DNA from: a virus
Reading direction: 5' to 3' (one strand)
Length of the DNA stretch: 64,000 bases
Virus record (IMG/VR): IMGVR_UViG_3300028827_000102
Coordinates: 1-64,000 of that record
Part shown: positions 11,338 through 54,669 of the stretch, piece by piece
How positions within the stretch are numbered: position 1 is the first letter of the stretch
How the letters are laid out: each line of letters starts with the position of its first letter
Notes under the pieces: generated by a model
The model's input: the letters and a program-made list of their open reading frames with translations, nothing else
The model's database searches: none
What the model was told of the DNA's origin: nothing
Translations under genes and position numbers: made by a program

Positions 11338-12533
11338 TATTGCACCATTACAGAATTGCTCAATATTCTGTTTGTTAATGCAGAAATAGATTGCAATGTG
11401 GCTACGCTGCCAGCAATGGTCTGTTTGGTTGCAGAAGATAACGCTGGTTCAGCTGCCAGGACATTAAATGTTGCTGACAAACTGATCAACATTGTATCTA
11501 ACATACTTTGTAAAGTATTACCCAATACAGCCGATTCAGTGGCAGTATTACCAAGTTTTATTGTATTTGATTTTATATGGGTGGAAGGTGTTTTAATAGT
11601 CAATGAGTTACCAAAAATTAAATTTCCTTTTTTCTTTGCATTTAAAGTTATATCTTTTATACGTATTTTTAATTTATGTTTATCGCCCATATCTACTAAT
11701 GTATCTCTGTCTCTAGTGTGTGTATTTCTAATAGTTACATTTAATTCTTCGTCAACAAATGTTTCAAGTCTATAAGCACCTGTACTGTCACCAATTTGTT
11801 TAATACATCGTAAAGGCTTTCCTGTTCTTCCGTCCTTTAAAACTTTACCATTTTCGTCATAAATGTTACCTTCATGTGTTACTACCAACAATTTGTCTTC
11901 TTGAGAATATAGCCATCTACCATACTCTAGAAGAAATTTATCTCCATCCATAACATATTTTTCTCTGGTAAATGGCTTATTAGTATCGGGACGTTTAACC
12001 ACACCAAATCTTTCCTCATGTCTTATATTGGGTAATTCATGTAAATGTAATTCTCTTCTGTATGTTGGTGTTCTTTGTCGTATCTCTAATTTATCCATAT
12101 CTAAGTCATGTTCTAGTACTCCACCTAATGTTTTGACGGATCCATCAGAAAGCCAAGCGGTTGTGGCTTTGCCCGAAGACATTACTTCTATTTCACCTGG
12201 ACGCAGTTGCCTGACTATAATATTGTCGTCTTTTGTTGCTTTATATACAACTTCTCCAAATCTTTGTGAGATATAACCAAGAACAACATGCCTTCTGGGT
12301 GTGTTTGCCATCTCTACCATACATTTTGTACCTATTTCTGGCATACACCTAATCCAACTATGAGGACCTAGATATGGATGTCTTACTGGTACAGATGGCC
12401 GCCCTGTAGTTGTAGCTACATCCAGTTTAAGTACTTCGTGTTCTGGTATAACTCTATTAACAATTGCTTTGTTTATACCATTAAGAGTTTTTGCTGTACG
12501 TTCATTGTTGACTATTTCTCTTATAGTAGGCAC
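11337..12533 (-). CDS. Baseplate central spike protein (gp5/gpV OB-fold type)
   Basis: The 398-residue product has an N-terminal OB-fold-like part (residues about 35-100: PYLGPHSWIRCMPEIGTKCMVEMAN and RRHVVLGYI), matching the spike OB domain in which a solid phrase about PxxGxxxxRxLPxxGxxV is followed by VVLGYL. A long beta-rich middle and a C-terminal stretch of the form THIKSNTIKLGN and AVLGNTLQSMLDTML follow. This last is the standard ending of P2 gpV and T4 gp5-like spikes, where the beta-helix needle leads into a GxxLxxLL motif. The gene is flanked by the hub protein upstream and the 783-aa protein downstream. The junctions are tight (1 nt at 12533 and 11337). Confidence 0.75.
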   Translation of the reverse strand: MPTIREIVNNERTAKTLNGINKAIVNRVIPEHEVLKLDVATTTGRPSVPVRHPYLGPHSWIRCMPEIGTKCMVEMANTPRRHVVLGYISQRFGEVVYKATKDDNIIVRQLRPGEIEVMSSGKATTAWLSDGSVKTLGGVLEHDLDMDKLEIRQRTPTYRRELHLHELPNIRHEERFGVVKRPDTNKPFTREKYVMDGDKFLLEYGRWLYSQEDKLLVVTHEGNIYDENGKVLKDGRTGKPLRCIKQIGDSTGAYRLETFVDEELNVTIRNTHTRDRDTLVDMGDKHKLKIRIKDITLNAKKKGNLIFGNSLTIKTPSTHIKSNTIKLGNTATESAVLGNTLQSMLDTMLISLSATFNVLAAEPALSSATKQTIAGSVATLQSISALTNRILSNSVMVQ

Positions 12534-15500
12534 TATGATCTCCTAGAAGCTGGCTTACGTGTATATGTATCCATTCTACCTTGTGCAGTATCTTTATCAA
12601 CTTTAGCATCTAGTCTATTAGCAATACGAATGGTAGCATTTTCGTTCCTCCTGGAAGGTATTCCGGAGTAATGCTTTTCCAGCGCTGTTGTAAGTTGTAA
12701 CTTACATTCTTTTACAGCAGAAATTCTATTTCTTCTTCCACGTTTTCGTCTAGCCGCTTTTTTACAGGCATTGTATTTTCTAAAAATGTTTAAACGTTCT
12801 TTTAAAATAACCGTAGACCCGCACAAAGAATATCTTTGAGTTGATCTATCTGGTCTGTATATATAAATATCATTTACATATTTATAGTATTTTCTGTAAT
12901 CGCTGGTAAGTGTTGGAAGTATTTCTTCTGGTTTAAAGAAGAAAAATGGGTTTGTAAATAAAGCATCTCCACGTAGTTTTACTGTTCTATAAAACCTATA
13001 ACGCAGGTTATCTTTTGTTGGCCACGAGGCCGGACGCATTAAATAGTCCAATGCATCGTCAACTGTTTCGATTGGTTTTTTGCCCTGTTTTCTTCTATGT
13101 TCATTTATTCTATTAAAATATCTTTGCCATTTTTCGCTCATTTTGTCTGATTTTATATTATTACCAGTGACCTTCATGGCGAGCATGGTGCGCATATATT
13201 CTCTATTTGCTTTTAATGTTTCTTGGAGTGCGCTTTGATCTGTACGTTTACTGTTGGTGTGTATTAACATTTCTACATGTACATGGTAAGTACTTGAATT
13301 GCCTGTATTACCAACATAAGCTATTTTTTCTCCCGCTTTAGGTAACCGCGAATAACCATGTAAACCAAAATAATAGTTACTTCCAGAAGGCTTTACTACA
13401 TCGTCTAAATGTCCAAAACGAAGTGTAACGTATAAACTTTTAGAGGCATCTCCTGGAAGTGTTACAGATCCGACCACCTCCATAAACATTCCTATTTTTG
13501 TGCTGTATCCTTTTGGATTCAATCTTGGCGTAGCTGCTCCGTTACTATACTTCTTGAATCGTTTTAGCATACCTTCGTCCACTACCACTTCCAAGAAACC
13601 ATCGCCCACATCTTTTGGTTTAGTGCCCTGTATTATAAATGGAAAAAGGGAAGGAAATTTTGTTACATGTACTCTATATTTTTTCTTTTGATTAGTGCGC
13701 CAACCAGCTGGTATACCTAATATACATATTGTGGGTTTTATTGGTGTATGTATAGGTGTGCCTTTAGGAGCTATTAAATCTACACCATTATGCCACGAAA
13801 ATCTGCTTTTGTAGGCATCACCCACACCACGCACAGGACCATAATTTGAAAATACAGACGGATTCCCTTTTACTGTAGCTGGTCCGCCTAACACAAACCC
13901 ATATGGATATGGGTTGTAAAACAACCTTCTAACGTCGTATATTGGTTTGTCTCCTTCGTGTTTTTTGGCGTTACCGTCGTGTAAACCAGTGTCTTTTGTT
14001 GTTATTGCTTCTGCCTTGTCGCCTGGATTAGGAGGTTCCCTGCTTACTCTTGTACCAACAAAACCACCGTGCAATCCATGTAATAGGTATTTTGGTATAT
14101 CTCCAGATTGCCCAGCAGCCCCTGCGGTAGATCCCCCATATGTACTAGCCACCCTAAACTGAGACAATCTGTCAACTGAAAATGCACTCGCTTCTATATA
14201 ACGATCTCGAAGTAATGGGCCGCAAGACCAATTAGTATTACGCATATCTCTTACGCTATGTCCCGACGCATCAGATATGCTTTTTGCTGCAGCTCCCATA
14301 CTTCTACCCAATGTTCTATGTTCTACGGCTTTCCGCGCGCCCCATCTCATATTGTACTTTATATCTCCGGTAAATAGACCAGAGTAATCGATAGGCATTC
14401 TAGATCCACCTGTTATGGTTCTAAATGTTCCATCTCTAAACAACTCTTTCACATACGAAACATTCATGTCTACAGTACAATTACCATCAGGAGGGGACAT
14501 AGAATAACTTACATTTTTTATCATACCGATACGTTGTCTGGGTACTAAGTGAATGGGTCTATTTGGTAACAAATAAGGACGAAACGGTATCTTTATCGAC
14601 ATGGATGACATTTGTCCCATGTCTTTTTGTATTTCAAGGTAGGCATAAGCTAGTAAAGACGCGACACCCGCATTTGCCGAAATTAAACCACCTATTCCTG
14701 GTATTTTCACATTTATCTGTTTTACTTTTGCTCCTATTCTTTGTGCTAATATTGGGGCCACAATTACTTTTTTCTTGAACAGATTTTGTACTAATTGATT
14801 AAATGCGGCTTTTTTAGTTTCGTCGTCTTCTTCTCCAGTCAATACCCAAGCAGTGTACATCGGACCAGTTTCTGGTGTTATTCTGTCTGATATTAATTCC
14901 TTTGCTACTTTATAAGCACCAGAAAATACCTTTCCCCAATCACTAGGAAGACCGTTATACATGGGGAACTCAAATATCATATCCCCCATAGGAGACACAT
15001 AAAACTGATAATCTAATGTATCTGATATCGCATTTAGTAATGACAATCTTGTTTCATATCTGTAACTTCCTTCTGTCCCGGTAGCATGGCCTATATTTTG
15101 ATGTACGATAGTTGCCGCTCCAGTGCCGCTTTTAGGCAATAACATATGTACGAAGCATTGTAGAGGTGAAAATACAGCACTTTCACTCCTGTCTGACACA
15201 GTACCATGCCCAATTGCACTCACTTCACGATAAGTAAACGGTCTGCCTATTATACCAAACAAAACAGTTTTGTTCCATGCCTGCATCTTTCTCGTATCGT
15301 ACTTATCCAAATCTAATTCTATCCCCATAGAAGTAGGCAGATGTGTGAGTGTAAGCCACTTAACGGCTGTTTCATATGACATACCAGCTAGAGGGTGCGA
15401 GTCTCTAGACAAAGCGTTTACCAAATCTTGGTACATTCCTGCATTTTTTTCATTAAATTGTGCGGCTGTATGGACAAAATCGGCCTTTGTTCCTCCAGCT

Positions 15501-17743
15501 TCACTTTGCTTCACTGCGTCTGATTGTCCTTTTGTGTGTGCTTCCCTCAACTGTCTACGTAATTCTTGTATTCTTCGTTGTCTGCGTACATTTGGGTCTC
15601 TTTTTTCTTCTCTGGTTACTTTTGCTTCTGCATCCTTAAATGCTTTTCTTACTGTCTCAAGACGTGAATTTAGTTCTTTAAGCAGATCCGCTTGCTTGTA
15701 TTTTAATGAGCCAAGAGCACCTTTTACGTATTTTTCGTTATATTCAGTAAGAGCTTGAATGAGTCCATTATTCATTTCAGGTGTTATATATCGATATACA
15801 GTATCCTTAAACATTTTATTGGCATTGAATACAATCAATGTACCAGATGTGTCCACATATTTTTTCAGATACTTTTCAAGCTCCCGTCTAGATTTTTCAG
15901 CGAAATCTCTTTTTCCTTTTGCTCTGGGCAGATTTGACTTAAAATTCTCTACCTTTTTTGCTACATATGCACTTAATAACAATGATACATCATTATATTG
16001 TGGCCAATAATAACCTGAGTAGTTTTCTATAAAATTTTGTTCAGACCTAGAATCATTAGGTAAAAAAGCAGTGGCAAAATTACTACTTCCGCCTGCTATT
16101 TTCCGTATTGCGGATTTTGCAGATATGTCTTCTCTTTTATCCCAACTTAGTTGTTTTTCCAAATCATTATCGTTTATATTTTTAAGAAGATCGTCTATTA
16201 TAGTATAAACAGGACCATAATTATTATACAATAGTCCTTCTATTTTCTCTTTATTGCTTGCATTTGGGTTTGCTTTGATCTTTGACTGTGCTGTTTTGTA
16301 TGCAGCGCTCACTGTTTGCGCAGCAGATATTATTTCTCGTCCTTTTGTGTGTAAAAATCCTATTAATTCTGTTATAGATTTGCCGAGGTCTATAGGTTTT
16401 GCATCACCATAACTCAATTCCAGTCTGCCCTTACTTTTGGGCTTCATTACTATCTTTCTCTTTCCACCGTCTACTTTGTTTGCTTTATCAATAACATCTA
16501 CCGCATTTTTATAAGCAGCGTAAAATTCTTTTACTTGAGCTTGTACTTCTCCCTTCGTTTCAGCGTACACTTTTTTAGCACAAGCGATATCGTATTTTCC
16601 GTCTTTTTTACAATTAGCCGCAACAAGTCTATGTTCAAATAAGGAATTAAATAGTCTTATAAATTCTACCGCTATTTCCTGATTGTCTATATTCCTCAAC
16701 CACGCTAAATCTATACCAAGTTTCTTAGCTTCAACAAAAACAGGACTTGTTTCTATCTCCCTTTGTACGGCATCTTGTAATGAATTATCTCCTTTTCCGC
16801 GTTTACCCTGATCATTGGTACTACTTATGGGAGATGCTTGTGTACGTACCCTCATTCTATTAAGTATTCCGCGAATATCGTAACATTTTATATTTATTTG
16901 TCTGTCTCCATTTACAAAATCATCTATTATATCATACTCGTCTATAAATCCAGTAAAAGCCGGTACCCATAGTTCGTTGTATCTTATTATTTTTCCATTT
17001 TTCTTTTTTACTGCACCTGCCATATGTGGCAATCTATAAAACACACGTACACAATCATGTTTATTGAATATACATCCATACGGATTAAGCGGATATAACC
17101 ACATACCCGTTTCATCGATTTGTTCGTCTTTGGTTCCTGGACGAACCTTTAAATATTTTTGACGATAAATTTTATATTTTGCCCATTCATCTGTATGGGA
17201 GCTACTTCTATACGGTGAAGTGATTATTCTTCCTTTTTTATCTCGTGCCAACATCCAACCGTGCGAGTTGAGATCTGCGCACACATTCATCGGTGTTACT
17301 ATAAAAGCGTCTTGGTTATTATTCAGAGTAAATGAACATGTATTCATTCCGCCGGTAGATTCTATAGTCCACCTTACGTCTCCACGTAAATATGGAGTTA
17401 CTTCTGCTCCTTCTATAAATACCCTTATTTCTGCGCTATGTACTTTCCAAACACCTTCTCTGTAGGCAATTTGGCTATCTATGCTACACAGATAAGCATT
17501 ATTACCAAAGCTTTTCCCGCCATATATTGATGCAGAAGGAAAACATTTTGGGGCACTTAATACACTACTTTTTCTTCTTCTTAGAATCGACAGCTTTCGC
17601 TGTAAATCACGCTGTTTAGCCATCAATTGCCGGTACCTAGCGGCACCTTCAGCATCGATACTACGCTGTATCTCCCCCCTTAGATTACCGGCTACTATGG
17701 TATTTTTCTCAGATTGACTTTGTGTGGATTGTCTATCGGCCAT
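12533..17743 (-). CDS. Baseplate hub / tail tape-like protein with M23 zinc endopeptidase domain
   Basis: At 1736 residues this is the largest gene here. Residues about 100-300 hold a hub-like beta domain (EIRVFIEGAEVTPYLRG, TCSFTLNNNQDAF) typical of gpD/gp27-type hubs. Residues about 330-800 are long charged helices. A second hub-like region (about 1080-1160) includes the phrase GMIKNVSYSMSPPDGNCTVD. Residues about 1310-1495 are an M23 (LytM) peptidase: WHNGVDLIAPKGTPI with H1318 and D1322, GHLDDVV, and the closing HVHVE pair at about 1487-1489, preceded by YVGNTGNSST. Such domains cut peptide cross-links so the tube can cross the cell wall. The C-terminal ~200 residues are Arg/Lys-rich. It is placed directly before the spike, as expected for the hub. 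Confidence 0.8.
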   Translation of the reverse strand: MADRQSTQSQSEKNTIVAGNLRGEIQRSIDAEGAARYRQLMAKQRDLQRKLSILRRRKSSVLSAPKCFPSASIYGGKSFGNNAYLCSIDSQIAYREGVWKVHSAEIRVFIEGAEVTPYLRGDVRWTIESTGGMNTCSFTLNNNQDAFIVTPMNVCADLNSHGWMLARDKKGRIITSPYRSSSHTDEWAKYKIYRQKYLKVRPGTKDEQIDETGMWLYPLNPYGCIFNKHDCVRVFYRLPHMAGAVKKKNGKIIRYNELWVPAFTGFIDEYDIIDDFVNGDRQINIKCYDIRGILNRMRVRTQASPISSTNDQGKRGKGDNSLQDAVQREIETSPVFVEAKKLGIDLAWLRNIDNQEIAVEFIRLFNSLFEHRLVAANCKKDGKYDIACAKKVYAETKGEVQAQVKEFYAAYKNAVDVIDKANKVDGGKRKIVMKPKSKGRLELSYGDAKPIDLGKSITELIGFLHTKGREIISAAQTVSAAYKTAQSKIKANPNASNKEKIEGLLYNNYGPVYTIIDDLLKNINDNDLEKQLSWDKREDISAKSAIRKIAGGSSNFATAFLPNDSRSEQNFIENYSGYYWPQYNDVSLLLSAYVAKKVENFKSNLPRAKGKRDFAEKSRRELEKYLKKYVDTSGTLIVFNANKMFKDTVYRYITPEMNNGLIQALTEYNEKYVKGALGSLKYKQADLLKELNSRLETVRKAFKDAEAKVTREEKRDPNVRRQRRIQELRRQLREAHTKGQSDAVKQSEAGGTKADFVHTAAQFNEKNAGMYQDLVNALSRDSHPLAGMSYETAVKWLTLTHLPTSMGIELDLDKYDTRKMQAWNKTVLFGIIGRPFTYREVSAIGHGTVSDRSESAVFSPLQCFVHMLLPKSGTGAATIVHQNIGHATGTEGSYRYETRLSLLNAISDTLDYQFYVSPMGDMIFEFPMYNGLPSDWGKVFSGAYKVAKELISDRITPETGPMYTAWVLTGEEDDETKKAAFNQLVQNLFKKKVIVAPILAQRIGAKVKQINVKIPGIGGLISANAGVASLLAYAYLEIQKDMGQMSSMSIKIPFRPYLLPNRPIHLVPRQRIGMIKNVSYSMSPPDGNCTVDMNVSYVKELFRDGTFRTITGGSRMPIDYSGLFTGDIKYNMRWGARKAVEHRTLGRSMGAAAKSISDASGHSVRDMRNTNWSCGPLLRDRYIEASAFSVDRLSQFRVASTYGGSTAGAAGQSGDIPKYLLHGLHGGFVGTRVSREPPNPGDKAEAITTKDTGLHDGNAKKHEGDKPIYDVRRLFYNPYPYGFVLGGPATVKGNPSVFSNYGPVRGVGDAYKSRFSWHNGVDLIAPKGTPIHTPIKPTICILGIPAGWRTNQKKKYRVHVTKFPSLFPFIIQGTKPKDVGDGFLEVVVDEGMLKRFKKYSNGAATPRLNPKGYSTKIGMFMEVVGSVTLPGDASKSLYVTLRFGHLDDVVKPSGSNYYFGLHGYSRLPKAGEKIAYVGNTGNSSTYHVHVEMLIHTNSKRTDQSALQETLKANREYMRTMLAMKVTGNNIKSDKMSEKWQRYFNRINEHRRKQGKKPIETVDDALDYLMRPASWPTKDNLRYRFYRTVKLRGDALFTNPFFFFKPEEILPTLTSDYRKYYKYVNDIYIYRPDRSTQRYSLCGSTVILKERLNIFRKYNACKKAARRKRGRRNRISAVKECKLQLTTALEKHYSGIPSRRNENATIRIANRLDAKVDKDTAQGRMDTYTRKPASRRS

Positions 17744-23072: not shown

Positions 23073-23600
23073 TCATGTTCCATCTTTCCACACGCCTTTG
23101 AAGTGTATGTACGTACTAGCGTCTGGAAATTTGTCGTTAAAGTGTGCTTCTACATGTTTTCTGCACACAACCAAAAAATCATCACCAAATTTCAAAACTC
23201 TAATGTTTGCGTCATTGTATTCTATTGTTGGTATAATTTTTTCTATACCATTACTGTAAATAAGCGCTATATAAGCAGGAAACCATTTTATTACGGGATT
23301 ATCGGCATATAATATAACGTACCCTATTATTCTTCTTTTTATTCTTTTTGCGTATATACCTATCAGCCATATATATCTTGACTGAACTAGTGTAGTAAAT
23401 TCTATACTCTCTGCACTGGTAAATTCACCTATTTTTATAGCATATGTATGCGATGTTACTTTTGCTATTACATATGGAAATAAACCATCCCATTGTTGTT
23501 TTATCGCTTCATGTAATTTATCTAATTTTGTGTCACCACCATATAATCCACCATACCCGCCTCCGTTTTCATTATCAGATACAGGTACATTCCGTTCCAT
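23073..23600 (-). CDS. Unknown protein overlapping the clamp gene
   Basis: The 175-residue product has a Gly/Tyr-rich N-terminus (ENGGGYGGLYGG) and then a beta-rich body (ESIEFTTLVQSRYIWLIGIY, RIIGYVILYADNP). It is not recognised. The start ATG 23600 lies inside the clamp gene, giving a 79-nt overlap, and has a convincing AAGGA ribosome site 7 nt away, so the overlap is likely real. The overlapped bases must therefore satisfy two frames. A role in replication is suggested only by neighbours. Confidence 0.6.
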   Translation of the reverse strand: MERNVPVSDNENGGGYGGLYGGDTKLDKLHEAIKQQWDGLFPYVIAKVTSHTYAIKIGEFTSAESIEFTTLVQSRYIWLIGIYAKRIKRRIIGYVILYADNPVIKWFPAYIALIYSNGIEKIIPTIEYNDANIRVLKFGDDFLVVCRKHVEAHFNDKFPDASTYIHFKGVWKDGT

Positions 23601-24625
23601 ACTTCTATCCTTGTCTCCAACCCGCCTGGAGCGGCTTTTACAAATTCATTTACGTATTCTATATTAAATGTCACAGGTGACGTGGTATGTGCATCTATTT
23701 CTGATGCATCTATTTTATGGTTAACAGAATGATTGTTTCCTACCGCAGACATATACATATTTCCATTTCTCGCTACTAGCGCAACTTCAGCTTCGTTTTT
23801 GTAAATAGGCATAATAGCTGCAATAGCCTTTTGTATTTCCGCAGGAGACACCACAAATGAAAAGGTTTTTTCTCCTGCTTTACACTTTTTAATTACTTCG
23901 TCGTCTATATTTACAACATTACCTGTAGTACACGGACAAAGAACATACATATCTTTGGTTTTAAATGATACCAAAGATGCATCTTTGTTTGTCCCTACCG
24001 TAATTGAACCGTCACCAGCGTCTTTTAGTAATAACCTCAGCACAGAATTAGCAATTAATACAGTAAGACTTGTTTTTGCTTGTATAGCATCATCGTTTAG
24101 TATATATCTACCGTAACTGATATAGTCTCTGCTAACATATTCAATATTTCCGTTGTGTATCGTTATTTGTGTTATTTGGTCGCCAGTTTGTGTTCTAAAT
24201 TCGGTGGTTTTTGTTGCCGCCTGAAACAACGATACAGGCATCTTTGCCAGTGTTTTAACCTTTTTTCTATCTTCCTTGTGTGCTTCAATAGACGATTCAG
24301 CAGAAACATCTACAGAAAATGACCATTTAGAGCTACCACAAGAAATAAGCATTTTGTCATCGTTGGTATCTATAATCACGTTTCCTTTTAGTGGAAGTGA
24401 CTCTATGTCTTTCATATTACAAAATATTCTTCCTGGACGTAATACGGTAACTGGAATTGTTCTATGTACAAACATGCCAGCAAATGCTGCTGCTATATGT
24501 AGCGAAGTATTTTTCTCCGTTACTATAAGCTCACAAGCCCGTTGGTCTGTCTTATCTATGGTAAATATAGCATTAATAGACTTCAATGCTTTTTTTATAT
24601 CTTTCGCTTTGACTTTGCACTTCAT
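23522..24625 (-). CDS. dnaN: Sliding clamp, DnaN (beta) type
   Basis: At 367 residues the protein has the length of bacterial beta clamps. It reads as three repeated domains: residues 1-~125 (MKCKVKAKDIKKALKSINAI, then a run of strands), ~125-245 (MPVSLFQAATKTTEFR) and ~250-367 (FSFVVSPAEIQKAIAAIMPIY). Each domain opens with a helix and a hydrophobic strand, as in DnaN. The C-terminal phrase VNEFVKAAPGGLETRIEVW followed by MVDYMVVTQN corresponds to the family's ending YLLDALKA... and the VMPM tail. The clamp tethers polymerase and other enzymes to DNA. A clamp-loader-type ATPase at 52559-53671 supports this. Sequence identity to known clamps is low, so a T4 gp45-like function with a beta-like fold is an inference. 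Confidence 0.7.
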   Translation of the reverse strand: MKCKVKAKDIKKALKSINAIFTIDKTDQRACELIVTEKNTSLHIAAAFAGMFVHRTIPVTVLRPGRIFCNMKDIESLPLKGNVIIDTNDDKMLISCGSSKWSFSVDVSAESSIEAHKEDRKKVKTLAKMPVSLFQAATKTTEFRTQTGDQITQITIHNGNIEYVSRDYISYGRYILNDDAIQAKTSLTVLIANSVLRLLLKDAGDGSITVGTNKDASLVSFKTKDMYVLCPCTTGNVVNIDDEVIKKCKAGEKTFSFVVSPAEIQKAIAAIMPIYKNEAEVALVARNGNMYMSAVGNNHSVNHKIDASEIDAHTTSPVTFNIEYVNEFVKAAPGGLETRIEVWNGMYLYLIMKTEAGMVDYMVVTQN

Positions 24626-24631
24626 AGCTAT

Positions 24632-25465
24632 CTATCCAGATATTGTTCTGGCCTCTATTTCTGAAATGTTGGCAATAGACATAAGTTTATTTGGATCACC
24701 AGTAAATCTCTTTTTTTGGACTTTTATGTGCTTCCAAGCTGATATTATTGCAGCATTTTGTTTAATGGTATTTAAGTTATCGAGTATAGCTTTTTGCTGT
24801 TTATGAGTAAGCCAAGATGAGCCTTGTACTGTTTCTTCTAATTTATCTACATTGCCAGATTCATTTACCAGCTTCAGTATCACCTTTTTACTCATTCTAG
24901 GTACAGCTTTAGGTATATCATCAGACACGTCTCCTGTCAATGCTTTTAATAGTACTACTTGGTCAGGCCATACACCTAATATTCGTTTGCATGTATATGA
25001 ATCTACCATAATCTGTTTTCCTTTTATGGTAGCATAAACACGCACCCCATTTGTTATATTTTGCCATATGTCACGGTCATTTGATACCACTATTATATCT
25101 TTTTCCTCATTGTTTTTAACATAGATAGCAATGGCATCATCCGCTTCTCCTTTAGGGGCCATTATAATGGTACAATTGCAACAAGAAATAATCTTTTTCG
25201 CTTTGCTTCTAGCCCAAGCAAATTCTTTAGTAGGACGAATTCTTCTTATCTTGTACCTATCAAATATTTTTCTTCTTTCTAACGTACCAGAACCTTCCAA
25301 TGCAAAGACAAAGTACCTGCCCGGAAACTTTTTTCTATAATTTAGCAACATTTGAATGAATAAAGGAGTGAACTTATCTATATTTCCAGCAACGGATAAA
25401 GCTCTGGCCACGACATTAGCCAAGTCGTATACAACGACCCCTTCTTGTGTAAATAATCCAACCAT
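24632..25465 (-). CDS. 5'-3' exonuclease / flap endonuclease (FEN-like)
   Basis: The 277-residue product has the metal ligands of the FEN/PolA 5'-nuclease fold: D14 (VVYDLAN), the cluster E107-A-D109-D110 (KGEADDAIA), D130 and D132 (SNDRDIW), and the late pair D179 with D182-D183 (TGDVSDDIP). The last is followed by a helix-hairpin-helix-like stretch (RMSKKVILKLV). The family removes RNA primers and flaps from lagging-strand DNA, as T4 RNase H and T5 exonuclease do. The gene overlaps the DnaB-like helicase start by one base at 25465 (TAATG). Confidence 0.88.
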   Translation of the reverse strand: MVGLFTQEGVVVYDLANVVARALSVAGNIDKFTPLFIQMLLNYRKKFPGRYFVFALEGSGTLERRKIFDRYKIRRIRPTKEFAWARSKAKKIISCCNCTIIMAPKGEADDAIAIYVKNNEEKDIIVVSNDRDIWQNITNGVRVYATIKGKQIMVDSYTCKRILGVWPDQVVLLKALTGDVSDDIPKAVPRMSKKVILKLVNESGNVDKLEETVQGSSWLTHKQQKAILDNLNTIKQNAAIISAWKHIKVQKKRFTGDPNKLMSIANISEIEARTISG

Positions 25466-26844
25466 TATATATCTATATCATCTATTTGTTTGTTTGTTTT
25501 TTGTTTCATTCTACTCATAGTAGAAGTGTCAAATCTACTAACAGGGCTGATGGAATCACCAAAACGTACACTCATGGTAGGCATATCAAACGTGGCCTGT
25601 ATATAACCACGCGCTGCGTTGCGTGCTTTGGCTAGTTTGATCTCTGTCTGTCCACCACGCGCCACTTCTTCGTCACCATATTTCCACCATAACCACCAGT
25701 CTGCATCTTCTTCTGGCCCGCGTCCGTATTTCACACGTTCATTGTCTGATAGCTGTGTAAGCAACACTATGACGGTATTCAATTCTTTGGCTAGCTGTTT
25801 AAAGAACCTGCTGTATTCTTTTTGCGCCAACCATAAGTCCCTTCCACCAGAAGAAAATAGTGTGAGATAATCTATCCATATACAATCATACCCAAACGGT
25901 AACACGGTTTTCTTCAAATCTGTCGGCTTACAGGCAGCATCCGATACATCCCATATAGTTAACTTCCCGCCCTTTTTAGCGTTATTTATAAATTCATACC
26001 ATTTATTCGTTAGACTTTTAATATATTCAATATTGTTCTTTTTTCTTACACGCACATCAACGAACAACTCACCAGTTGCGGAAGCCAACATACGTTCTAT
26101 AAGCTGATCTCTGGACATTTCTAACGACCACAGCGCCACATTCAACCCATGTGTAGCAAACTGCTTGGTGGCTGCTTGTAGCATCATTGCGGTCTTCCCG
26201 CCACCACGAGGAGCTGATACCAGCACCAGATCTCCGCGCACAGCTCCACGTACTTCTTCATCCAAAGCATCTATACCAAACTCAACGAAGCGTTTTTCTT
26301 CTACCTCCATGATTTTTCTAACCAGCTTATCAGCTGATTTTTCGCTCATTTTTGATACTATTGTTATTGATCTTACCGCTTCACTTTGTTTAGTTGTTTG
26401 TGCCAAATCATCCAATAAAGCATTTACTTGAGCGAATTCCTCTTCACCATAAGTACCTTCTTTTAATATACTTATAACTGACTGTAAAGATTCGTATACT
26501 TTTCTGGCTTTTTTGTACTGTTTCAGCTGGCTTATCATCAACTTCAGCTTATTTATATCGACAGCACGACAATAATTTAATTCTCTACTTTTTACAGATG
26601 TTAACAGTAAACGGGCTTTTTGCGACAAACCAGGGTCATCGGTCATATCTTCCAAAGCAGAAGGAAGTTTGCCAATCTCCAGTCTTTTTTCTAGCCTTCT
26701 TCTTATCTCATTGCATACTTTATTTGCAAAGTCGTTCGTTTCCGTTAGTGATAACGCAGCTATACGAATTTTTTTATCTTTATTTGCTATAGCTGTTACC
26801 AGAACTCTACGTTCTACCCCTATATTTATTAAAGAATTTCCCAT
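25465..26844 (-). CDS. Replicative DNA helicase, DnaB-like
   Basis: The 459-residue product has a helical N-terminal half (to about residue 185). A RecA-fold motor follows, with Walker A SAPRGGGKTA (residues 210-219), the phrase VALWSLEMSRDQLIERMLA (the DnaB pattern SLEMS..QL..R), a Walker B of the form YDCIWIDYLTLF, and VIVLLTQLSDN. The family forms hexameric rings that unwind DNA 5' to 3' at the fork, as T4 gp41 does. The GGGK P-loop variant is normal for the family. The upstream gene looks like a helicase loader that has lost its ATPase motifs. Confidence 0.9.
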   Translation of the reverse strand: MGNSLINIGVERRVLVTAIANKDKKIRIAALSLTETNDFANKVCNEIRRRLEKRLEIGKLPSALEDMTDDPGLSQKARLLLTSVKSRELNYCRAVDINKLKLMISQLKQYKKARKVYESLQSVISILKEGTYGEEEFAQVNALLDDLAQTTKQSEAVRSITIVSKMSEKSADKLVRKIMEVEEKRFVEFGIDALDEEVRGAVRGDLVLVSAPRGGGKTAMMLQAATKQFATHGLNVALWSLEMSRDQLIERMLASATGELFVDVRVRKKNNIEYIKSLTNKWYEFINNAKKGGKLTIWDVSDAACKPTDLKKTVLPFGYDCIWIDYLTLFSSGGRDLWLAQKEYSRFFKQLAKELNTVIVLLTQLSDNERVKYGRGPEEDADWWLWWKYGDEEVARGGQTEIKLAKARNAARGYIQATFDMPTMSVRFGDSISPVSRFDTSTMSRMKQKTNKQIDDIDI

Positions 26845-27380
26845 TATTTACAGTCTACTAGAAAGTGCATATCAACAGACATGCACAATTTTTGAGTGGA
26901 AAATTTTACTGGATTTGGACATCCAGATACAGCCAATATACACATACTATATCTAAATCTAAATATGGCGTCTCTGATAGCCTGTAATCTTTCGGTGGTA
27001 GCATTATCAATAATATTATAAATAATTACCAATGATGGTGCTTTTTTCCAGGCGTGTAAATTCTGTGAATCTAACCATAAGAACGAATTGCCTGTCTGAC
27101 GGACACGCTCTTGTACTATAGCCGAAGAAAGTAATAAAGCTGCTGTATCTGTGCGTTTGCTAGCTATTATCGATACACCCCGTTTGTGTGCCGTTGCTAT
27201 ACTGCGGGCATCTGTACGTTGTTTGGCTACTGTTATAATAGATCTTCCATGTTTTATAGCGCTAAAACGTACGGATGAAAAAGAAGCTCCCCAATACTGT
27301 GGAGGAATATTATGTTTTGCCAACATCACTTCAAAAGAAGTGCGTGCCTTAAATTTGTCTTCTATTTCTTGAGAGAACAT
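26844..27380 (-). CDS. DnaC/IstB-like protein with degenerate ATPase motifs, possible helicase loader
   Basis: The 178-residue product follows the DnaC order: an N-terminal phrase NIPPQYWGASFSSV (family pattern GIPxRYxxASF), then a stretch RGVSIIASKRTDTAALLLSS (about residues 68-87) where the P-loop G....GKT would be, then SLVIIYNI (about 116-123) where Walker B LLIIDDI would be, then ILAVSGCPNPVKF, where the sensor-like T.NP phrase of the family lies. Both nucleotide-binding motifs have lost their key residues (no GKT; no DD). The gene sits directly upstream of the DnaB-like helicase, with a 1-nt overlap. An ATP-independent loader or cofactor is inferred. It might equally be a truncated, inactive remnant, but the intact frame and coupling argue against decay. 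Confidence 0.5.
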   Translation of the reverse strand: MFSQEIEDKFKARTSFEVMLAKHNIPPQYWGASFSSVRFSAIKHGRSIITVAKQRTDARSIATAHKRGVSIIASKRTDTAALLLSSAIVQERVRQTGNSFLWLDSQNLHAWKKAPSLVIIYNIIDNATTERLQAIRDAIFRFRYSMCILAVSGCPNPVKFSTQKLCMSVDMHFLVDCK

Positions 27381-27401: not shown

Positions 27402-28916
27402 TTACTTTTTTCTTTTCTTTCTCCACAAACCTGTTTTCATGGCCATTCTTCGGGAGTCTTCCTCTTCTATGTCCCATCCTTCTTTATTACAGTATCTTTT
27501 TAGATTTTTTGCTGCTCCTGACAATTGTCCTCCTTCGCTAACATATACACGTATCAATGGAAATGGTTTTCCTTCTTGAGGTCGTCTAGTACGACCAAAA
27601 AACTGCTGCATAGTTATTTCATCGTTTACAGGAGTAACCAAATGCATACAGTCAAGAGGATCGATTGATACCATAGCTTTTAGCACTTTTCCTGCACAAA
27701 TACAACGGTACTTTTTTCCTTTTGCCACTTCTTTGTATATCTCATCTCTTTTAGCTTTTTTTACTTTTCCGTCCACATAAGCGACTTTATATCCTTCTTG
27801 TCTAAGCCTGTCACGTATTTTTTTAACTATAGATAATCTTAACCCAACCACCGCAACCAGTCTACCATTGTCGATATCTTCCATCACTTTTTTTACAATC
27901 AGATCGTTTCTGTATTCGTCCTGTTCCAATAGTTGGTGTAATTTATTCCATTTCCACTGCCTACTGTATGGAGTACGACCATCTAACCACGATGGAACTA
28001 CAAATCCGTCCTTTATAAAAGTAACCTGTGGCCGCATTTGGTCCACTTCTGCTTCAGCAACAATACCTCCAAGATGCCAAAGAGCAAGTTGTTCGCGTCT
28101 GTCGTTTCTCTTTATTGTAGCTGTCAACCCCAACCACGATAAAGGGTTCCATAAAGACAATACTCTAAAAAATTCTTGTGACACTAATTCATGTATCTCA
28201 TCACATATGATAAAACCAAAGTGGTTCTGGTGTCTTATCAATGATTCATAACCAGATTTATGTAAAAATGTTTGTATGGTAGATACAGCTATATCAGGCT
28301 GTTTGTCTTTGTTTGGATCGTATTTTCCAATAATCTTTCTGTTAAGCTTTTTTTCTATTTTATCTATATTTGTATGCTTACGGAATTCTGGTACCCAATG
28401 CGGTTCTACATCTTTTCTAGCTGCTAATACTAAAGTGCGAAGTCCTAAACGAACCGCTGTGGCTATACCCATAACAGTTTTACCTGATCCGGTTTTTGCT
28501 ATTATTATGCCTGATCCTTTTTTCAGAAATTTGTCAACACATTGTTTTTGGTATGTATTCCATCTATCATCTGCCAGCGTAGCCTTGTTCATCTTAAAAC
28601 GAAAAGACAGTGGACATACAGACCTTACATCTATCGCTTTTCTTACAAATTCATACAAATTTGTACAGTTTCCACGAGGAAAACCAATGTAATCTTGTCC
28701 TATGCCTGATAATATACTTCTAGTGCCTACAATGGTATGCTGTATTTCTTTTCTTTCTAGTTTTGGCTTGCCTGCGTTGTCCAGTACAACTAAACCATCA
28801 TCACCTATTTTACTGTCTGTATAGTATTGTGTCCAATTGATTGTGTATCTAGACAACATATCCGCAGTAACATCATGTCTTGGTATAAATAATCTATTTC
28901 CAAGTAGTACATTCAT
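27402..28916 (-). CDS. Superfamily 2 DNA helicase, XPB/UvsW-like
   Basis: The 504-residue product has Walker A AKTGSGKT (residues 140-147), motif Ia LVLAARKDVEPHW, a DEIH box (IICDEIHEL, about 234-243), motif III GLTATIKR, and a second RecA lobe ending with the motif VI-like QQFGRTRRP. The N-terminal ~110 residues are an accessory domain. The order suits XPB/RecG/UvsW-type duplex translocases; T4 UvsW unwinds branched recombination intermediates and R-loops. The stop overlaps with the next gene's coding (28913-28916). Its neighbours, RuvC-like resolvase and RecA in other blocks, agree with a recombination role. Confidence 0.85.
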   Translation of the reverse strand: MNVLLGNRLFIPRHDVTADMLSRYTINWTQYYTDSKIGDDGLVVLDNAGKPKLERKEIQHTIVGTRSILSGIGQDYIGFPRGNCTNLYEFVRKAIDVRSVCPLSFRFKMNKATLADDRWNTYQKQCVDKFLKKGSGIIIAKTGSGKTVMGIATAVRLGLRTLVLAARKDVEPHWVPEFRKHTNIDKIEKKLNRKIIGKYDPNKDKQPDIAVSTIQTFLHKSGYESLIRHQNHFGFIICDEIHELVSQEFFRVLSLWNPLSWLGLTATIKRNDRREQLALWHLGGIVAEAEVDQMRPQVTFIKDGFVVPSWLDGRTPYSRQWKWNKLHQLLEQDEYRNDLIVKKVMEDIDNGRLVAVVGLRLSIVKKIRDRLRQEGYKVAYVDGKVKKAKRDEIYKEVAKGKKYRCICAGKVLKAMVSIDPLDCMHLVTPVNDEITMQQFFGRTRRPQEGKPFPLIRVYVSEGGQLSGAAKNLKRYCNKEGWDIEEEDSRRMAMKTGLWRKKRKK

Positions 28917-29419
28917 TTTATACTTGCCATAATATCATTATACTTTATACAACCAGCATCTAAGAAAAATACTGGTATATTGTTATCCTTTGCTATACGT
29001 ATACCTTGTTCTGTACCTCCCTTTTTATCGTGTCTACGAAAAGCTAAAACAAAATCAGTGTCCTTGATTATATTGTAATTTCTGGCATGTAATCGCAACG
29101 CTCCTTTACTCAAGGCTTTAGGTTTCGGGTGGTATTTAGTCACAGAAGAAAATGCCTCAAAGTCCGTATCATTCAATATATTTATATGAACATCTCCGTG
29201 TAAAGATGCCACCCAAGTCCTTTCGTATGATGCCCACGGTAAAAACAATACCACCTTTCCACCGGCCTGTAAAGCACCCTCAACAAAAGCCTGGTCTGCT
29301 CCTACAGCAGCTCCGGTATGAAGTACCATACCTTTTCTGGCCAGTTTTCTCCCTATATTAATCAGTCTAGATCTGTCTTTGATGGACAGCTTTCTAGTAC
29401 CAATGCCAGCGTATATCAT
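28913..29419 (-). CDS. SLOG-domain (DprA/YAcAr-like) protein
   Basis: The 168-residue product has a Rossmann-like nucleotide-binding layout: MIYAGIGTR at the start, ARKGMVLHTGAAVGADQAFVEG around residues 28-50, a strand KVVLFLPW, and near the end VLAFRRHDKKGGTEQGIRIA with the GGT.xG phrase. These are the marks of SLOG/DprA-like and DUF1273/DUF2493-like families, which bind nucleotides or nucleotide-like signals. Its partner and ligand are unknown. It overlaps the SF2 helicase gene by 4 nt, an ATGA-type junction, so it is made together with it. Confidence 0.75.
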   Translation of the reverse strand: MIYAGIGTRKLSIKDRSRLINIGRKLARKGMVLHTGAAVGADQAFVEGALQAGGKVVLFLPWASYERTWVASLHGDVHINILNDTDFEAFSSVTKYHPKPKALSKGALRLHARNYNIIKDTDFVLAFRRHDKKGGTEQGIRIAKDNNIPVFFLDAGCIKYNDIMASIK

Positions 29420-49619: not shown

Positions 49620-50115
49620 ACTCTACCTCTTTTTTTAACCGACGATACAGTATTGTATGTAGCCATTTACAAGGAGGCAATGCTACTAAAACATTGTCTC
49701 CTTTATCTACGAATTTTAGATTCTTTATCTTAATTCTATTAGGAAAGCTGTCCCATACCGATATAAATTTGTTTATCGAGCTATCGTAGAAAAACCTATT
49801 TACATACTTTGTCGGTATTTTTAATTTATTTGCCAGCATTGTGGCTACATAGTAGCCAGTATCATCATGTATGTCATAATCACAACATAAACACCACAAC
49901 AACACGCAAGACAGTCTTAAATGCTTTCCTTCAGTATGCTGCTTTAGTTTTTTCATAAACAATCCGGCACTCAAATACACTCGTTCATCGTGAATGTCAA
50001 GGACAATATTACCGTCTTTTATATGATATGAACGTACATCTCCATATGTATTTATCACCCAATCTTTAAGTGGTGTGTCTTCCATTCTATGATATAATCT
50101 ATGTATTAGCATCAC
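49600..50115 (-). CDS. Unknown protein between SbcC-like and BRCT-like genes
   Basis: The 171-residue product is mixed alpha/beta. It has a Cys-rich spot (LSCVLLWCLCCDYDIHDDTG, residues about 68-87), where the Cys and His could form a metal site, and a basic end RRLKKEVEYEHENG. It overlaps the SbcC-like gene by 4 nt and the next by 20 nt, so it is strongly coupled. No domain is recognised. Confidence 0.55.
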   Translation of the reverse strand: MMLIHRLYHRMEDTPLKDWVINTYGDVRSYHIKDGNIVLDIHDERVYLSAGLFMKKLKQHTEGKHLRLSCVLLWCLCCDYDIHDDTGYYVATMLANKLKIPTKYVNRFFYDSSINKFISVWDSFPNRIKIKNLKFVDKGDNVLVALPPCKWLHTILYRRLKKEVEYEHENG

Positions 50116-52562
50116 ACCAACATTGACTTGTCCAGATACGGTTTAAATTTTTCTGGTAGTCCTGTTTTGTACAATTCCGCTACATGTTCGTTTCGTACAG
50201 CCCACCATACCTGATCAAACATATCTTCGTGAACAAACACATCGCGTTGATTGCCAATAACTATTATTGTACCAATTCTTTTGCGTAGATCATGCAGTAT
50301 ACGTAAAAGACTACTGGTACCCTGCGGATCAAGGTTAGAGAACGGTTCATCTACGACTAATAGATTGGTACTTGTTCCTGTATATATTTCTTTTAAATCT
50401 CTGATACCAAATAGTAAAGCTAAACCGGCCTTGTTCCTTTCGCCACCACTAAACAACCTGCTTACTACTTCAGGACCACCGTCTTTTCGTCTAAGAGCCA
50501 CCTTTACGTCTGTACCCGACGCCACTAAATCAAGCACCACATTGCGCTTTGGCCACATTAATTCACTATAGCGAGGGACGGTTTTAGTCACAGCATCTGT
50601 AAGTATTCGCTCAAATCGTATACGTTTAAGACCTTTCGCACCAAAAGCCTTTTTTAGTGCTTCTAAACATTTATAACGTTTGCGCACCTCTGTCATTTTA
50701 GCAAGACCTGATACAATCTTTTCTTTACGCTTCATCATAGCATCGTATCTATCTACACTAGCACCTAAATTACCTACCATACGGTCAGCTTCTGTTTTGC
50801 TTTCACGTATACGGTCCAGCTTCAGTTTTGTGTTATGTATAACTTCTCTTAGCTGTTCTATATCACCTGAAGGTAAATCTTTAATCCTATTCCTTTTGGA
50901 AATCATTTCTGTGGCAGCTTCTATCAATGTTTTCTTTTCTTTTATTACTTTTTCATACCGTTTCTTATCTTTTGTTATTTTATGCTGATCGTTTCCAGAC
51001 GGAAGTTCTGCCAATTTTGCTTGTATAGTCATCCTAGAAGCCGCAGCTTCTAATTCTTCCACCAAATTTTGCTCTTTTACCATAAGAGAATTAAGCATTG
51101 TACGAAGAGCTGGCGCATTTTTAGGTGGTTTTGGTATATTCTGAAGTTTTTCTTTTAGCTTGGAATGCTTGTCTGCTGTTTTCAGCGCTTTTGATATTTC
51201 ATTTTCCTGGCGAACAAGCTTTTCTAAATATGCACGACGTTTAGCAAGCCTATGTTTCTTTACTGAAACTTCTTTGTCAGACATATTAAATGGACGATGA
51301 CACGTCGGGCACACATCACTCTTTAGGGCTCTATTAAGATCATCTATCTCTTTTTCAGTCTTTGCTATTTCGCCTGTTAAATCTTTCCATTGTGCCCTTA
51401 GTGCCGTTATATCCATGTCAGGAATAGGACCAAGAGCTTTAATTTCTTCAGCAATCTCTATTCTACGCTCTGCGTTGGGTATATAAACATCTTCTATTTT
51501 TTGTATTTTCTTTCTAACGCTTTTTAAATCATCTTCTATTTCGTCTTTATCTCTTGAATCGGGCAATGCTTCTAATCTTGTCTTCAGTGTAGCAACTCTT
51601 CCTATGGCATCTAAAGCAGCTTTGCATTGTTCTACTTGCTTTATTGCATTTTCATAGCTGACCGACAATTTTTCAACATATTCGTCATCTATATCATCTA
51701 CAGAACCTACACCAAAATCAACACTGCTCCATATTTCTTCTATTTCTTTTTGTATTTGATTATATTCTTTTACTTCACGTAATCTATGCTGTAAACGATT
51801 CAACCGTTTTGTTCCGACAGAAAATTCTTTATCTAGACGTTCTGCTTCTTTTCTATAGTAAGCCAGATCCTCTACCAGATCGTACATAGACTTCCCAAAG
51901 CTATCCAAGGCTGCATTAACATCTTCCAACTCTCGTTCGAGTTTTTCGGCATCCCTGAGTACTATTTTGTCGGTAACTAACATAGATTTAGTCTTCTCTA
52001 GTAAATCATCATATACATCTAGAGAAAACATTCTCATCAGACTTTGTTGTCTTTCACTATCTGTTCCTGACAGCAAAACATTATTATAATCTTGCGGTAA
52101 ATAAACAAGACTGAACAAAGATCTGTCATCTAATTTTGTAATGTTATCTACCAACCATTTGGTAGGGTGTTTTCTTGCAGAAGAAGGTAGTATATTATCG
52201 CCTGTGGCAAGATCTATTATACGAAAGGAATTTCCATATTTTCCGTGGTTTCTGTACTGAACAATTTCGTATTTATGTCCATCTACAGATAAATGTAAAT
52301 GTGCCTCATAGTTTCCGCCAGATTGTACATTTATCACATCAGATACAAATGTGCGTTCGCTTCTACCAGTACCTTTTCCGCTTTTTCCTACTAGTAAATG
52401 AGAAAAAATTTCAAATGGGCTGGTTTTACCGGCTCCTAGAAACCCACCATCATCTACATTCAATCCACGTAAAAGCACCAACCCCTGATTCTGCAGCGGA
52501 ATATCACATGTTTTGTACGCATAACCATTATTAAACCAAAGCTTTGTGTATTCTACTCTCAT
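50112..52562 (-). CDS. sbcC: SbcC/Rad50-type (T4 gp46-like) recombination ATPase
   Basis: The 816-residue product has Walker A G-F-L-G-A-G-K-T (residues 40-47), a signature phrase LFSGGERNKAGLALLFG, and Walker B LLVVDEPFSNLDPQG (about residue 737). Two long coiled coils flank a zinc-hook motif CPTC (about 415-418). With the SbcD-like nuclease this makes a complex that trims DNA ends for recombination-dependent replication. Upstream lies the clamp-loader gene, followed by SbcD-like and RecA genes, the T4 gp46/gp47/UvsX layout. The stop shares bases with the next gene's start (4-nt overlap). Confidence 0.9.
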   Translation of the reverse strand: MRVEYTKLWFNNGYAYKTCDIPLQNQGLVLLRGLNVDDGGFLGAGKTSPFEIFSHLLVGKSGKGTGRSERTFVSDVINVQSGGNYEAHLHLSVDGHKYEIVQYRNHGKYGNSFRIIDLATGDNILPSSARKHPTKWLVDNITKLDDRSLFSLVYLPQDYNNVLLSGTDSERQQSLMRMFSLDVYDDLLEKTKSMLVTDKIVLRDAEKLERELEDVNAALDSFGKSMYDLVEDLAYYRKEAERLDKEFSVGTKRLNRLQHRLREVKEYNQIQKEIEEIWSSVDFGVGSVDDIDDEYVEKLSVSYENAIKQVEQCKAALDAIGRVATLKTRLEALPDSRDKDEIEDDLKSVRKKIQKIEDVYIPNAERRIEIAEEIKALGPIPDMDITALRAQWKDLTGEIAKTEKEIDDLNRALKSDVCPTCHRPFNMSDKEVSVKKHRLAKRRAYLEKLVRQENEISKALKTADKHSKLKEKLQNIPKPPKNAPALRTMLNSLMVKEQNLVEELEAAASRMTIQAKLAELPSGNDQHKITKDKKRYEKVIKEKKTLIEAATEMISKRNRIKDLPSGDIEQLREVIHNTKLKLDRIRESKTEADRMVGNLGASVDRYDAMMKRKEKIVSGLAKMTEVRKRYKCLEALKKAFGAKGLKRIRFERILTDAVTKTVPRYSELMWPKRNVVLDLVASGTDVKVALRRKDGGPEVVSRLFSGGERNKAGLALLFGIRDLKEIYTGTSTNLLVVDEPFSNLDPQGTSSLLRILHDLRKRIGTIIVIGNQRDVFVHEDMFDQVWWAVRNEHVAELYKTGLPEKFKPYLDKSMLV

Positions 52563-53671
52563 AGGTCTTTTGCCAAATTCGCCAGTTTAACCGCTAACAC
52601 TTCCAATATAACTTTATTGTTTGTGTAATATGTCTTTATTCTTTCCTGCTCTCTGGTACAAAGATCAAGCATTTCTGCTATTATACTGGCCTTAGTAGTA
52701 ATATTTCCGGATTTGCGGTCAGGTAGTGGGACATTTTTTAACATGAATTTCTTTGTCTCGTCCATTAAATTTGGTGAAATCAAATATAATAACAATTGTT
52801 CCAACACTACTATAATTTGTCCGATAAAGTAATCATGTGCAGTTACTTCAGTGCTATAAGCTATAGCTTTACCGAACTTTCCAGACAACACTGAAGCAAC
52901 ATAATGCTGTACAGCTACATAGGTTTTTGTAGCGTCAGATTGCTTGATTATAGCAGGTAGAGCCTTGACTAGATCTTCCCCTGTCTTACCTGCTGAAGCA
53001 ACCTGTGATAGCAAATTTAGAGCGTCTCTAGGATGTCCGTCAACAGCCCGGGCAATCTGTAAAGTTGCTTTAGGAGGTATAGCTATACCTTCCTTTTTTG
53101 CTACAGGCAACAGTAATTTTTTGGCCAAAACTTCTGGCTTAACTGTTTTCAGATAGTATATTAAAGCCCTACTACGTATTGTGGTGGGAAGTACCTCCGG
53201 ATTGGTGGTACATAATATAAATCTGGCTTGACTATGAGGTTTCTCAAAAAGACGCAAAGCTGCATCAAACGCCTGCCTGGTTAGATTATGTGCTTCATCG
53301 ATTATAAAAAACCGATATTTATGTGGAGATCGGTACTTGGCTTGTTGTTCTAAAGCCCGTATAGCATCTATCCCTCTTTCGGATACCTGTTTTTCTACTA
53401 CAGAAGTAGTATCACCACCATAACGAATAGCTTTTATGGTTTGTTTGCAAGAATCACACTTGCCACAAATTTCTCCGTCTGTCCTATTTGTACAGTTAGC
53501 ATATAACGCTATCAACCACGCCAATGTGGTTTTCCCTACACCATGAGGACCACACAACAAAATAGTTGGATTGATTTCATCTTCCAAAGACCCACGAAGA
53601 GACGATACTACGGCATCTTGCCCAACTACTTGAGAAAATTTTATAGGTCTATACTTTGCTGTAAAATTCAT
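52559..53671 (-). CDS. dnaX: Clamp-loader ATPase, DnaX (gamma/tau)-like
   Basis: The 370-residue product opens with KYRPIKFSQVVGQDAVVSSL, the hallmark of clamp loaders. It has Walker A GPHGVGKT (residues 41-48), a zinc module (C60, C69, C72, C75) as in DnaX, and Walker B FFIIDEAHNL. A sensor-1 part with CTTNPEVLPTTIRSRALIYY follows, then helices including HPRDALNLLSQ. It loads the ring-shaped clamp on DNA. The SRC motif is changed to SRA. No small-subunit partner gene (delta, delta-prime) is seen in the window, unlike T4, where gp44 has gp62. Confidence 0.88.
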   Translation of the reverse strand: MNFTAKYRPIKFSQVVGQDAVVSSLRGSLEDEINPTILLCGPHGVGKTTLAWLIALYANCTNRTDGEICGKCDSCKQTIKAIRYGGDTTSVVEKQVSERGIDAIRALEQQAKYRSPHKYRFFIIDEAHNLTRQAFDAALRLFEKPHSQARFILCTTNPEVLPTTIRSRALIYYLKTVKPEVLAKKLLLPVAKKEGIAIPPKATLQIARAVDGHPRDALNLLSQVASAGKTGEDLVKALPAIIKQSDATKTYVAVQHYVASVLSGKFGKAIAYSTEVTAHDYFIGQIIVVLEQLLLYLISPNLMDETKKFMLKNVPLPDRKSGNITTKASIIAEMLDLCTREQERIKTYYTNNKVILEVLAVKLANLAKDL

Positions 53672-54669
53672 TCATTCACCTCTATCAACATTTTTCTGGC
53701 TATTTTTTCTGCCATAATAATCATATCTTGTTGTAGGTTTTCTTTTTCTAAGAACTCGTGGAGGTGCATAAGCGGATCTTCAAAAGACGATTCATACTTG
53801 CCATGCACCTTAACTGGAGGTTCATAGATTATATTGTCAGGCAAGACTACATTAGGATCAAGCTCTTTTTGTGGCTTTAATTTTAAGAATTCAGGTAAAT
53901 CATCACCTTTAAATTCATCCCAAACAACTAGAGGATATGGATGGTTGATGCGAACAAATTTTGGTTTTGCTTTGCCTGTGTCTACGATAAGAACGCCTTT
54001 ATTTTCATCCTCACCAAAATTTACCTGATGTGGCGATCCTGGATAATAAGCGTTGTCAGATATCTTCTGCCTTTTGTGTATATCACCAAGAGCCCAGTAT
54101 ACTATATCTGGCACATGGGGTATTTTGATTTGATTTGATTTTATTACCTTTGTACCATTATCCGTCACGGCTCCTGTAACAGCTTCGTGCATAACCGCAA
54201 TTATAGGTTTATTGCTTCTTGTCCTTATCTTTTCCACCATAGATTTTACTACTATATCAAAGTCATATCCAGACCAACCATGAAAAGGTAACAATAAAAA
54301 CACAACATCATTTATTTCGACAAAATCAGGCAGACCGTCACATATAACATGTTTACCAATAGGTAAATGAGACAGATAATTAAGAGCCGTATCACCAAAC
54401 TTATGTGATACTCTTTGATCATGATTGCCAGAAATAGCTATAACCGGTATAGGACAAGAATGCAACCAACCAGAAAATAACAATCTTTCGCTGTTTGTTA
54501 AATCCGGTCTATCCCAAATATCGCCAGATATAACTATAGCTTCTGCTTTGTATCTATTTGCTATGGCTGTTATTTTGTTTAGTGTAAATTTGTGTCTTAT
54601 AAGGTATTTACCAGGAAACTTTGCCCTTAGACAGTTTAAATGTAAATCTGCAGTGTGTAAAAATCTCAT
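53668..54669 (-). CDS. sbcD: SbcD/Mre11-type (T4 gp47-like) nuclease
   Basis: The 333-residue product has the calcineurin-like metallophosphoesterase ligands: D8 and H10 (HTADLHLNC), SGDIWDR (GD-x-xD), SGNHDQ (GNHD), and later the H-containing stretches VMHEAV and ALGDIHKRQ. It is a manganese-dependent nuclease that works with SbcC. The phrase YYPGSPHQVNFGED matches the family capping part. The 4-nt overlap with the clamp-loader gene and the position before the histone-fold gene show co-expression. Confidence 0.9.
   Translation of the reverse strand: MRFLHTADLHLNCLRAKFPGKYLIRHKFTLNKITAIANRYKAEAIVISGDIWDRPDLTNSERLLFSGWLHSCPIPVIAISGNHDQRVSHKFGDTALNYLSHLPIGKHVICDGLPDFVEINDVVFLLLPFHGWSGYDFDIVVKSMVEKIRTRSNKPIIAVMHEAVTGAVTDNGTKVIKSNQIKIPHVPDIVYWALGDIHKRQKISDNAYYPGSPHQVNFGEDENKGVLIVDTGKAKPKFVRINHPYPLVVWDEFKGDDLPEFLKLKPQKELDPNVVLPDNIIYEPPVKVHGKYESSFEDPLMHLHEFLEKENLQQDMIIMAEKIARKMLIEVNE

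Follow-up and report, generated by a model that had tools for sequence, protein, structure and literature searches.

Helicase loaders are usually described as being of two kinds. Some are ATP-dependent AAA+ proteins, like DnaC and DnaI, and others are unrelated proteins that work without ATP, like lambda P, T4 gp59 and DciA. Among clamp loaders, dead subunits are known (delta, delta-prime). The literature searched, which consisted largely of papers available without a subscription, contained no account of an AAA+ helicase loader that has lost its ATPase. A natural family that keeps the AAA+ shape without an ATP site pulls the AAA+ fold and ATP dependence apart, and it would directly test what ATP turnover adds to loading.

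DnaC carries its helicase-binding domain in residues 1-75. This domain, which is free of ATPase, reaches about half the wild-type level of DnaB loading, and DnaC with a mutated Walker A loads like wild type, though unwinding is stimulated less well (PMC8213410). The LH-DH of DnaB is reported to be the binding site common to loaders (PMC9912922).

The gene and its family

The window is the whole stretch of viral DNA that was analysed, 64,000 nucleotides long. On its minus strand, directly before the gene for a DnaB-type helicase, lies an open reading frame of 178 codons, running from ATG to TAA. An earlier note had read its product as a DnaC-like loader with both ATPase motifs lost. The strings it quoted are all present: NIPPQYWGASF at residues 24-34, IASKRTDTAALL at 72-83, LVIIYNI at 117-123 and SGCPNPVKF at 152-160. 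The features of the locus are:

26844-27380, minus strand: pseudo-AAA+ coding sequence, 178 aa, a divergent member of PHROG_20094
27240-27380, minus strand: N-terminal 47 residues; AlphaFold2 pLDDT below 50 for residues 1-47
27132-27167, minus strand: P-loop place, residues 72-83, IASKRTDTAALL; no GKT, D78 conserved family-wide
27012-27032, minus strand: Walker B place, residues 117-123, LVIIYNI; no acidic pair, family mostly hhhTN
26901-26927, minus strand: end of the sensor-I strand and loop, residues 152-160, SGCPNPVKF; family G-x-D-P
26856-26870, minus strand: last core strand in the AlphaFold2 model, residues 171-175
25465-26844, minus strand: DnaB-type replicative helicase, 459 aa; PF03796 E=6e-25, phrog_19 E=4.9e-52
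27402-28916, minus strand: ResIII/UvsW-like helicase, 504 aa, directly upstream of the pseudo-AAA+ gene
24632-25465, minus strand: 5'-3' exonuclease (FEN/PolA N-terminal type); PF02739 E=9.3e-18
23522-24625, minus strand: sliding clamp; phrog_947
52559-53671, minus strand: clamp-loader ATPase (DnaX/RFC-like), GKT and DE intact; PF13177 E=9.8e-26

The clamp-loader ATPase is the sole PF13177 match in the genome and lies 25 kb from the pseudo-AAA+ gene. The TAA of the latter and the ATG of dnaB overlap by one base (...aaaTAATGgg). The junction itself is ordinary and by itself carries little weight, because other gene borders in the window (25465, 12533) show the same overlap of one base.

The window protein matches the PHROG_20094 model at E=1.4e-4 in a PHROGs profile search. 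A family HMM built without it matched it at 39.7 bits (E=3.5e-11). The background consisted of 377 window frames and 1000 shuffles, and given that the best shuffle reached 7.7 bits, this match is beyond chance. The HMM was also built without the protein of Rhizobium phage RHph_N46, which then matched at 43.2 bits. The family's gene order, a UvsW-like helicase, the pseudo-AAA+ gene and, in part of the family, the DnaB helicase, is the order found in the window. Vibrio phages GR7B and GR11A, which were reached via DnaB, have a 216-217-aa protein directly before dnaB and a helicase gene upstream of it, and these proteins match PHROG_20094 at about 1e-31.

Further relatives are found in PaBG, Lu11, HRDY3, Alexandravirus, Salmondvirus, Snuvirus, Sarumanvirus, Motura, the PpuM phages, PhiXhv-12, NCTB and Yersinia fHe-Yen9-02, with a shorter one in RHph_N46. 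The window protein is 16-25% identical to its relatives and has a shorter N-terminus than the family. Its end branch on the family tree measures 3.78, and the tree cannot place it. The front motif NIPPQYWGASF, which had been taken as a sign of DnaC order, does not recur in the other members and is no evidence of such an order.

Other searches yielded little. Pfam scans of the window protein and its relatives gave nothing usable, and a PDB sequence search with the family profile returned no AAA+ protein (the best match, 6fhe at E=0.021, is a synthetic construct). Scanning IMG/VR with the single protein matched only a near-identical copy of the same region, and a scan with the RHph protein as query had no matches.

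In many phage records, members of PHROG_20094 are labelled 'DNA polymerase' (or 'DNA exonuclease'), for example at L003:7929-8549 and L013:4653-5462. The polymerase name is wrong, because a polymerase of the phrog_17 type is encoded elsewhere in each of the genomes. In the window this is a separate 963-aa gene, and the 178-aa protein, an AAA+ core, has no polymerase domain. The reading proposed here would correct a label that is now copied across many phage records.

Predicted fold and loss of the ATP site

It is well supported, by AlphaFold2 models and Foldseek searches, that the window protein has an AAA+ core of the clamp-loader/initiator type, shrunken and with its P-loop and Walker B eroded. 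The fold the earlier note had proposed is therefore the one predicted. With 17 alignment rows, AlphaFold2 gave a confident core from about residue 51 (pLDDT about 85). The strands are at 68-74, 100-104, 117-124, 146-152 and 171-175, and the helices lie between them as expected for an AAA+ core: the P-loop strand is followed by a helix at 80-96, and 117-124 is the Walker B strand. Strands 2 and 3 are joined by a short segment. Only 3 residues follow the last core strand, and this means there is no lid, Arg-finger or sensor II. For another family member, L027, the model had an overall pLDDT of 84.7 and a pTM of 0.83.

Against the PDB, Foldseek matched RFC, Hda, DnaC (3ec2/3ecc), T4 gp44 and the E. 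coli DnaC in 6qel, at a probability of about 1.0. The best E-values went to clamp loaders, not DnaC. TM-scores were mostly 0.4-0.5, which points to a reduced and drifted AAA+ core. In a viral structure library, family members came out on top, followed by RFC small subunits and DnaC-type phage proteins.

The places of the P-loop (72-83) and Walker B (117-123) were set by the family alignment, the AlphaFold2 model and the DnaC profile alignment. A motif search found neither GK[ST] nor hhhhD[DE] anywhere in the window protein, so the absence of a GKT and of an acidic pair holds as first described. It is also not a one-off design of this phage, since the Walker A motif and the Walker B acidic pair are absent in 25 out of 25 members examined. 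Former P-loops elsewhere in the family include SSFPNDYRAK and GSPDDRQAL, and the Walker B place reads hhhTN in most members and YN in the window protein, where N122 is shared by almost the whole family. What is new here is that the ATP site was lost long ago and throughout this family of large phages, a trait masked by the wrong label.

The minimal member of the family, the 162-aa protein of RHph_N46 (L010:5328-5816), has the most P-loop-like stretch (SAPEYGRLF) and is the only one with an acid at the Walker B place (LLILDS, one acid). It is possibly an intermediate of ATP-site loss.

One rival reading is that the window gene decayed, in this phage alone, from a DnaC-type gene that was once active. 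The long branch and the low identity to relatives would fit damage. But the Walker motifs are missing from all 24 relatives examined as well, the reading frame has stayed open, and the family positions Q54, D78, N122, R136, D137, G153 and P157 are retained. Given that no homologue examined keeps Walker motifs, this reading is refuted, and we hold it to be wildly improbable.

Which clade of AAA+ proteins the core came from is not told by sequence alone: the profiles hint at DnaC, and the fold search leans slightly to clamp loaders. The family profile aligned to a profile of nine DnaC/DnaI proteins with a score of 21.9, where 100 column permutations gave a mean of 12.5 (sd 2.1) and none as high. 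This alignment is in register: P-loop on P-loop, Walker B on Walker B and sensor I on sensor I. Against a profile of 17 clamp-loader ATPases from the same phages the score was 16.8 in an alignment out of register, a value reached by 6 of 100 permutations. The DnaC link is a hint only, because hhalign's own figures for it are a probability of 2% and E=0.024.

Known profiles did not match. For PF01695, which covers DnaC/IstB, the window protein had no match at E up to 1 and its relatives none at E up to 5-10, so membership of DnaC/IstB was not borne out by sequence. The same goes for T4 gp59 (PF08993), which had been suggested as a second HMM check; the predicted fold is alpha/beta, whereas gp59 is all-helical. 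The clamp-loader subunit profiles PF13177 and PF16790 did not match the window protein either.

What the protein shares with DnaC, DnaI and IstB is a small predicted AAA+ core of similar size, the in-register profile alignment, and a gene that adjoins dnaB in part of the family. It differs in lacking Walker A and B, Arg-finger, sensor II and a PF01695 match, in the short link between strands 2 and 3, and in having only a putative N-terminal helicase-binding domain (47 low-confidence residues). With clamp-loader subunits (RFC, gp44, delta/delta-prime) it shares the AAA+ fold and the broad clade. It would do the same job without ATP as lambda P, T4 gp59 and DciA, but their folds are unrelated, while this one is AAA+-derived.

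Neighbourhood, replisome and rival roles

The replisome inventory covers 17 genomes and the gene distances 16 of these, with one near-copy left out. DnaB, the clamp, a clamp-loader ATPase and a phrog_17-type DNA polymerase are each present in 17/17. Profile searches for gp59, gp62 and DnaC/IstB (PF01695) found 0/17 each above the cut-off. Judged by the gp59 and DnaC/IstB profiles, the helicase-loader slot in these genomes looks empty.

In 7/16 genomes no more than 50 bp separate the pseudo-AAA+ gene from dnaB downstream of it: the window, GR7B, GR11A, PpuM-Aura, PhiXhv-12, Motura and RHph_N46. For any one gene, such adjacency has a chance below 1% in each genome. The family tree requires 3 changes of the dnaB-adjacent label, compared to a shuffled mean of 6.3.

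The other 9/16 genomes have dnaB 3 kb to 129 kb away (3.3 kb in Saruman), while a UvsW-like helicase stays within 5 kb in 15/16 and is adjacent in several. This goes against a DnaB partner. The protein might instead assist the UvsW-like branch-migration helicase during recombination-dependent replication, with its place next to dnaB being secondary. Against this, the RHph_N46 gene is directly before dnaB with the ResIII helicase 7.5 kb off, and it is dnaB with which the gene shares its stop/start overlap in the window, GR11A and PpuM-Aura. We consider a UvsW accessory unlikely.

We likewise give a small probability to a catalytically dead clamp-loader subunit, like delta or delta-prime or in the place of T4 gp62, that would aid the phage ATPase in opening the clamp. 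All 17 genomes have one clamp-loader ATPase and a clamp with no detectable gp62, RFC subunits are the top Foldseek matches, and the clamp gene is within about 6.3 kb in 15/16 genomes. But the lid and collar domains that hold clamp loaders together are absent, since the model ends with the core, the gene is never within 10 kb of the clamp-loader gene (16 genomes), and the profiles are out of register. Quite improbable is a structural adaptor in the replisome whose fold derives from AAA+ but which takes no part in loading, or else a protein that regulates the helicase of the phage or of the host. The loss of all catalytic parts and the high sequence divergence do fit a scaffold; the position directly before dnaB, conserved in several lineages, and the lack of any other detected loader in these genomes (gp59 and DnaC/IstB were searched) do not.

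A candidate partner of DnaB

The family membership, the AAA+ fold, the family-wide loss of the ATP site and the conserved gene order are computed. The best reading of them, to which we give somewhat better than even chances, is an AAA+-derived pseudo-ATPase acting as partner or loader of DnaB. Such a protein probably assists in putting the helicase on DNA and spends no ATP in doing so. If true, this would account for the loader that is missing from many large-phage replisomes.

Contact with DnaB, loading and the trigger for release are steps that we infer. Nucleotide binding would have gone with Walker A, Walker B and the lid that holds the Arg-finger and sensor II. The five-strand core is retained, and so are the conserved D from the old P-loop, the N behind the Walker B strand, the R-D in the next helix and the G-x-D/N-P loop that follows sensor I. 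With its synthesis tied to that of DnaB through the shared stop/start, the protein would bind the helicase, and its leftover AAA+ surface could act as a passive brace that keeps the helicase ring open. Alternatively, the ring might be handed to single-stranded DNA at forks that the UvsW-like helicase encoded next to it has shaped. Release would be driven by the helicase's own ATPase and not the loader's. The DnaC experiments cited above indicate that a DnaC-type loader does not strictly depend on ATP turnover; by analogy, a dead DnaB-binding core could brace an open ring.

A more specific version, to which we give slightly less than even chances, is that this family turned an AAA+ helicase loader ATP-independent: the site, lid and Arg-finger were lost early, and the core would still load DnaB on the helicase's energy alone. 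The 47 N-terminal residues sit where DnaC and DnaI carry their helicase-binding domain. Against a DnaB partner, this region has no structure in the window model and is almost missing from the dnaB-adjacent RHph_N46, and as noted the best Foldseek E-values and the weak DnaC link do not favour it.

Many members of the family carry hydrophobic-acidic C-terminal tails (KADLMDML, KASIMDI, SLLDI, QQLEL) which resemble a clamp-binding peptide. Tail-bearing members are L004:5644-6417, L013:4653-5462, L014:4944-5690, L026, L027 and L010:5328-5816; most dnaB-adjacent members have no such tail. The tail (LMDIL, IMDI, LEL) was rejected as a clamp-binding peptide, given that the polymerases in these genomes do not have it and the window protein is tailless.

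The window holds other genes of note. A DprA/SLOG-like protein (28913-29419) is encoded immediately upstream of the UvsW-like helicase. The clamp-loader ATPase sits in one block with an SbcC-like gene (50112-52562), a calcineurin-like (SbcD-like) phosphoesterase (53668-54669) and RecA (55128-56282). Finally, the product of 12533-17743 is 1736 aa long and has a stretch around residues 1469-1548 that resembles a peptidase; it is probably a protein of the tail or virion.
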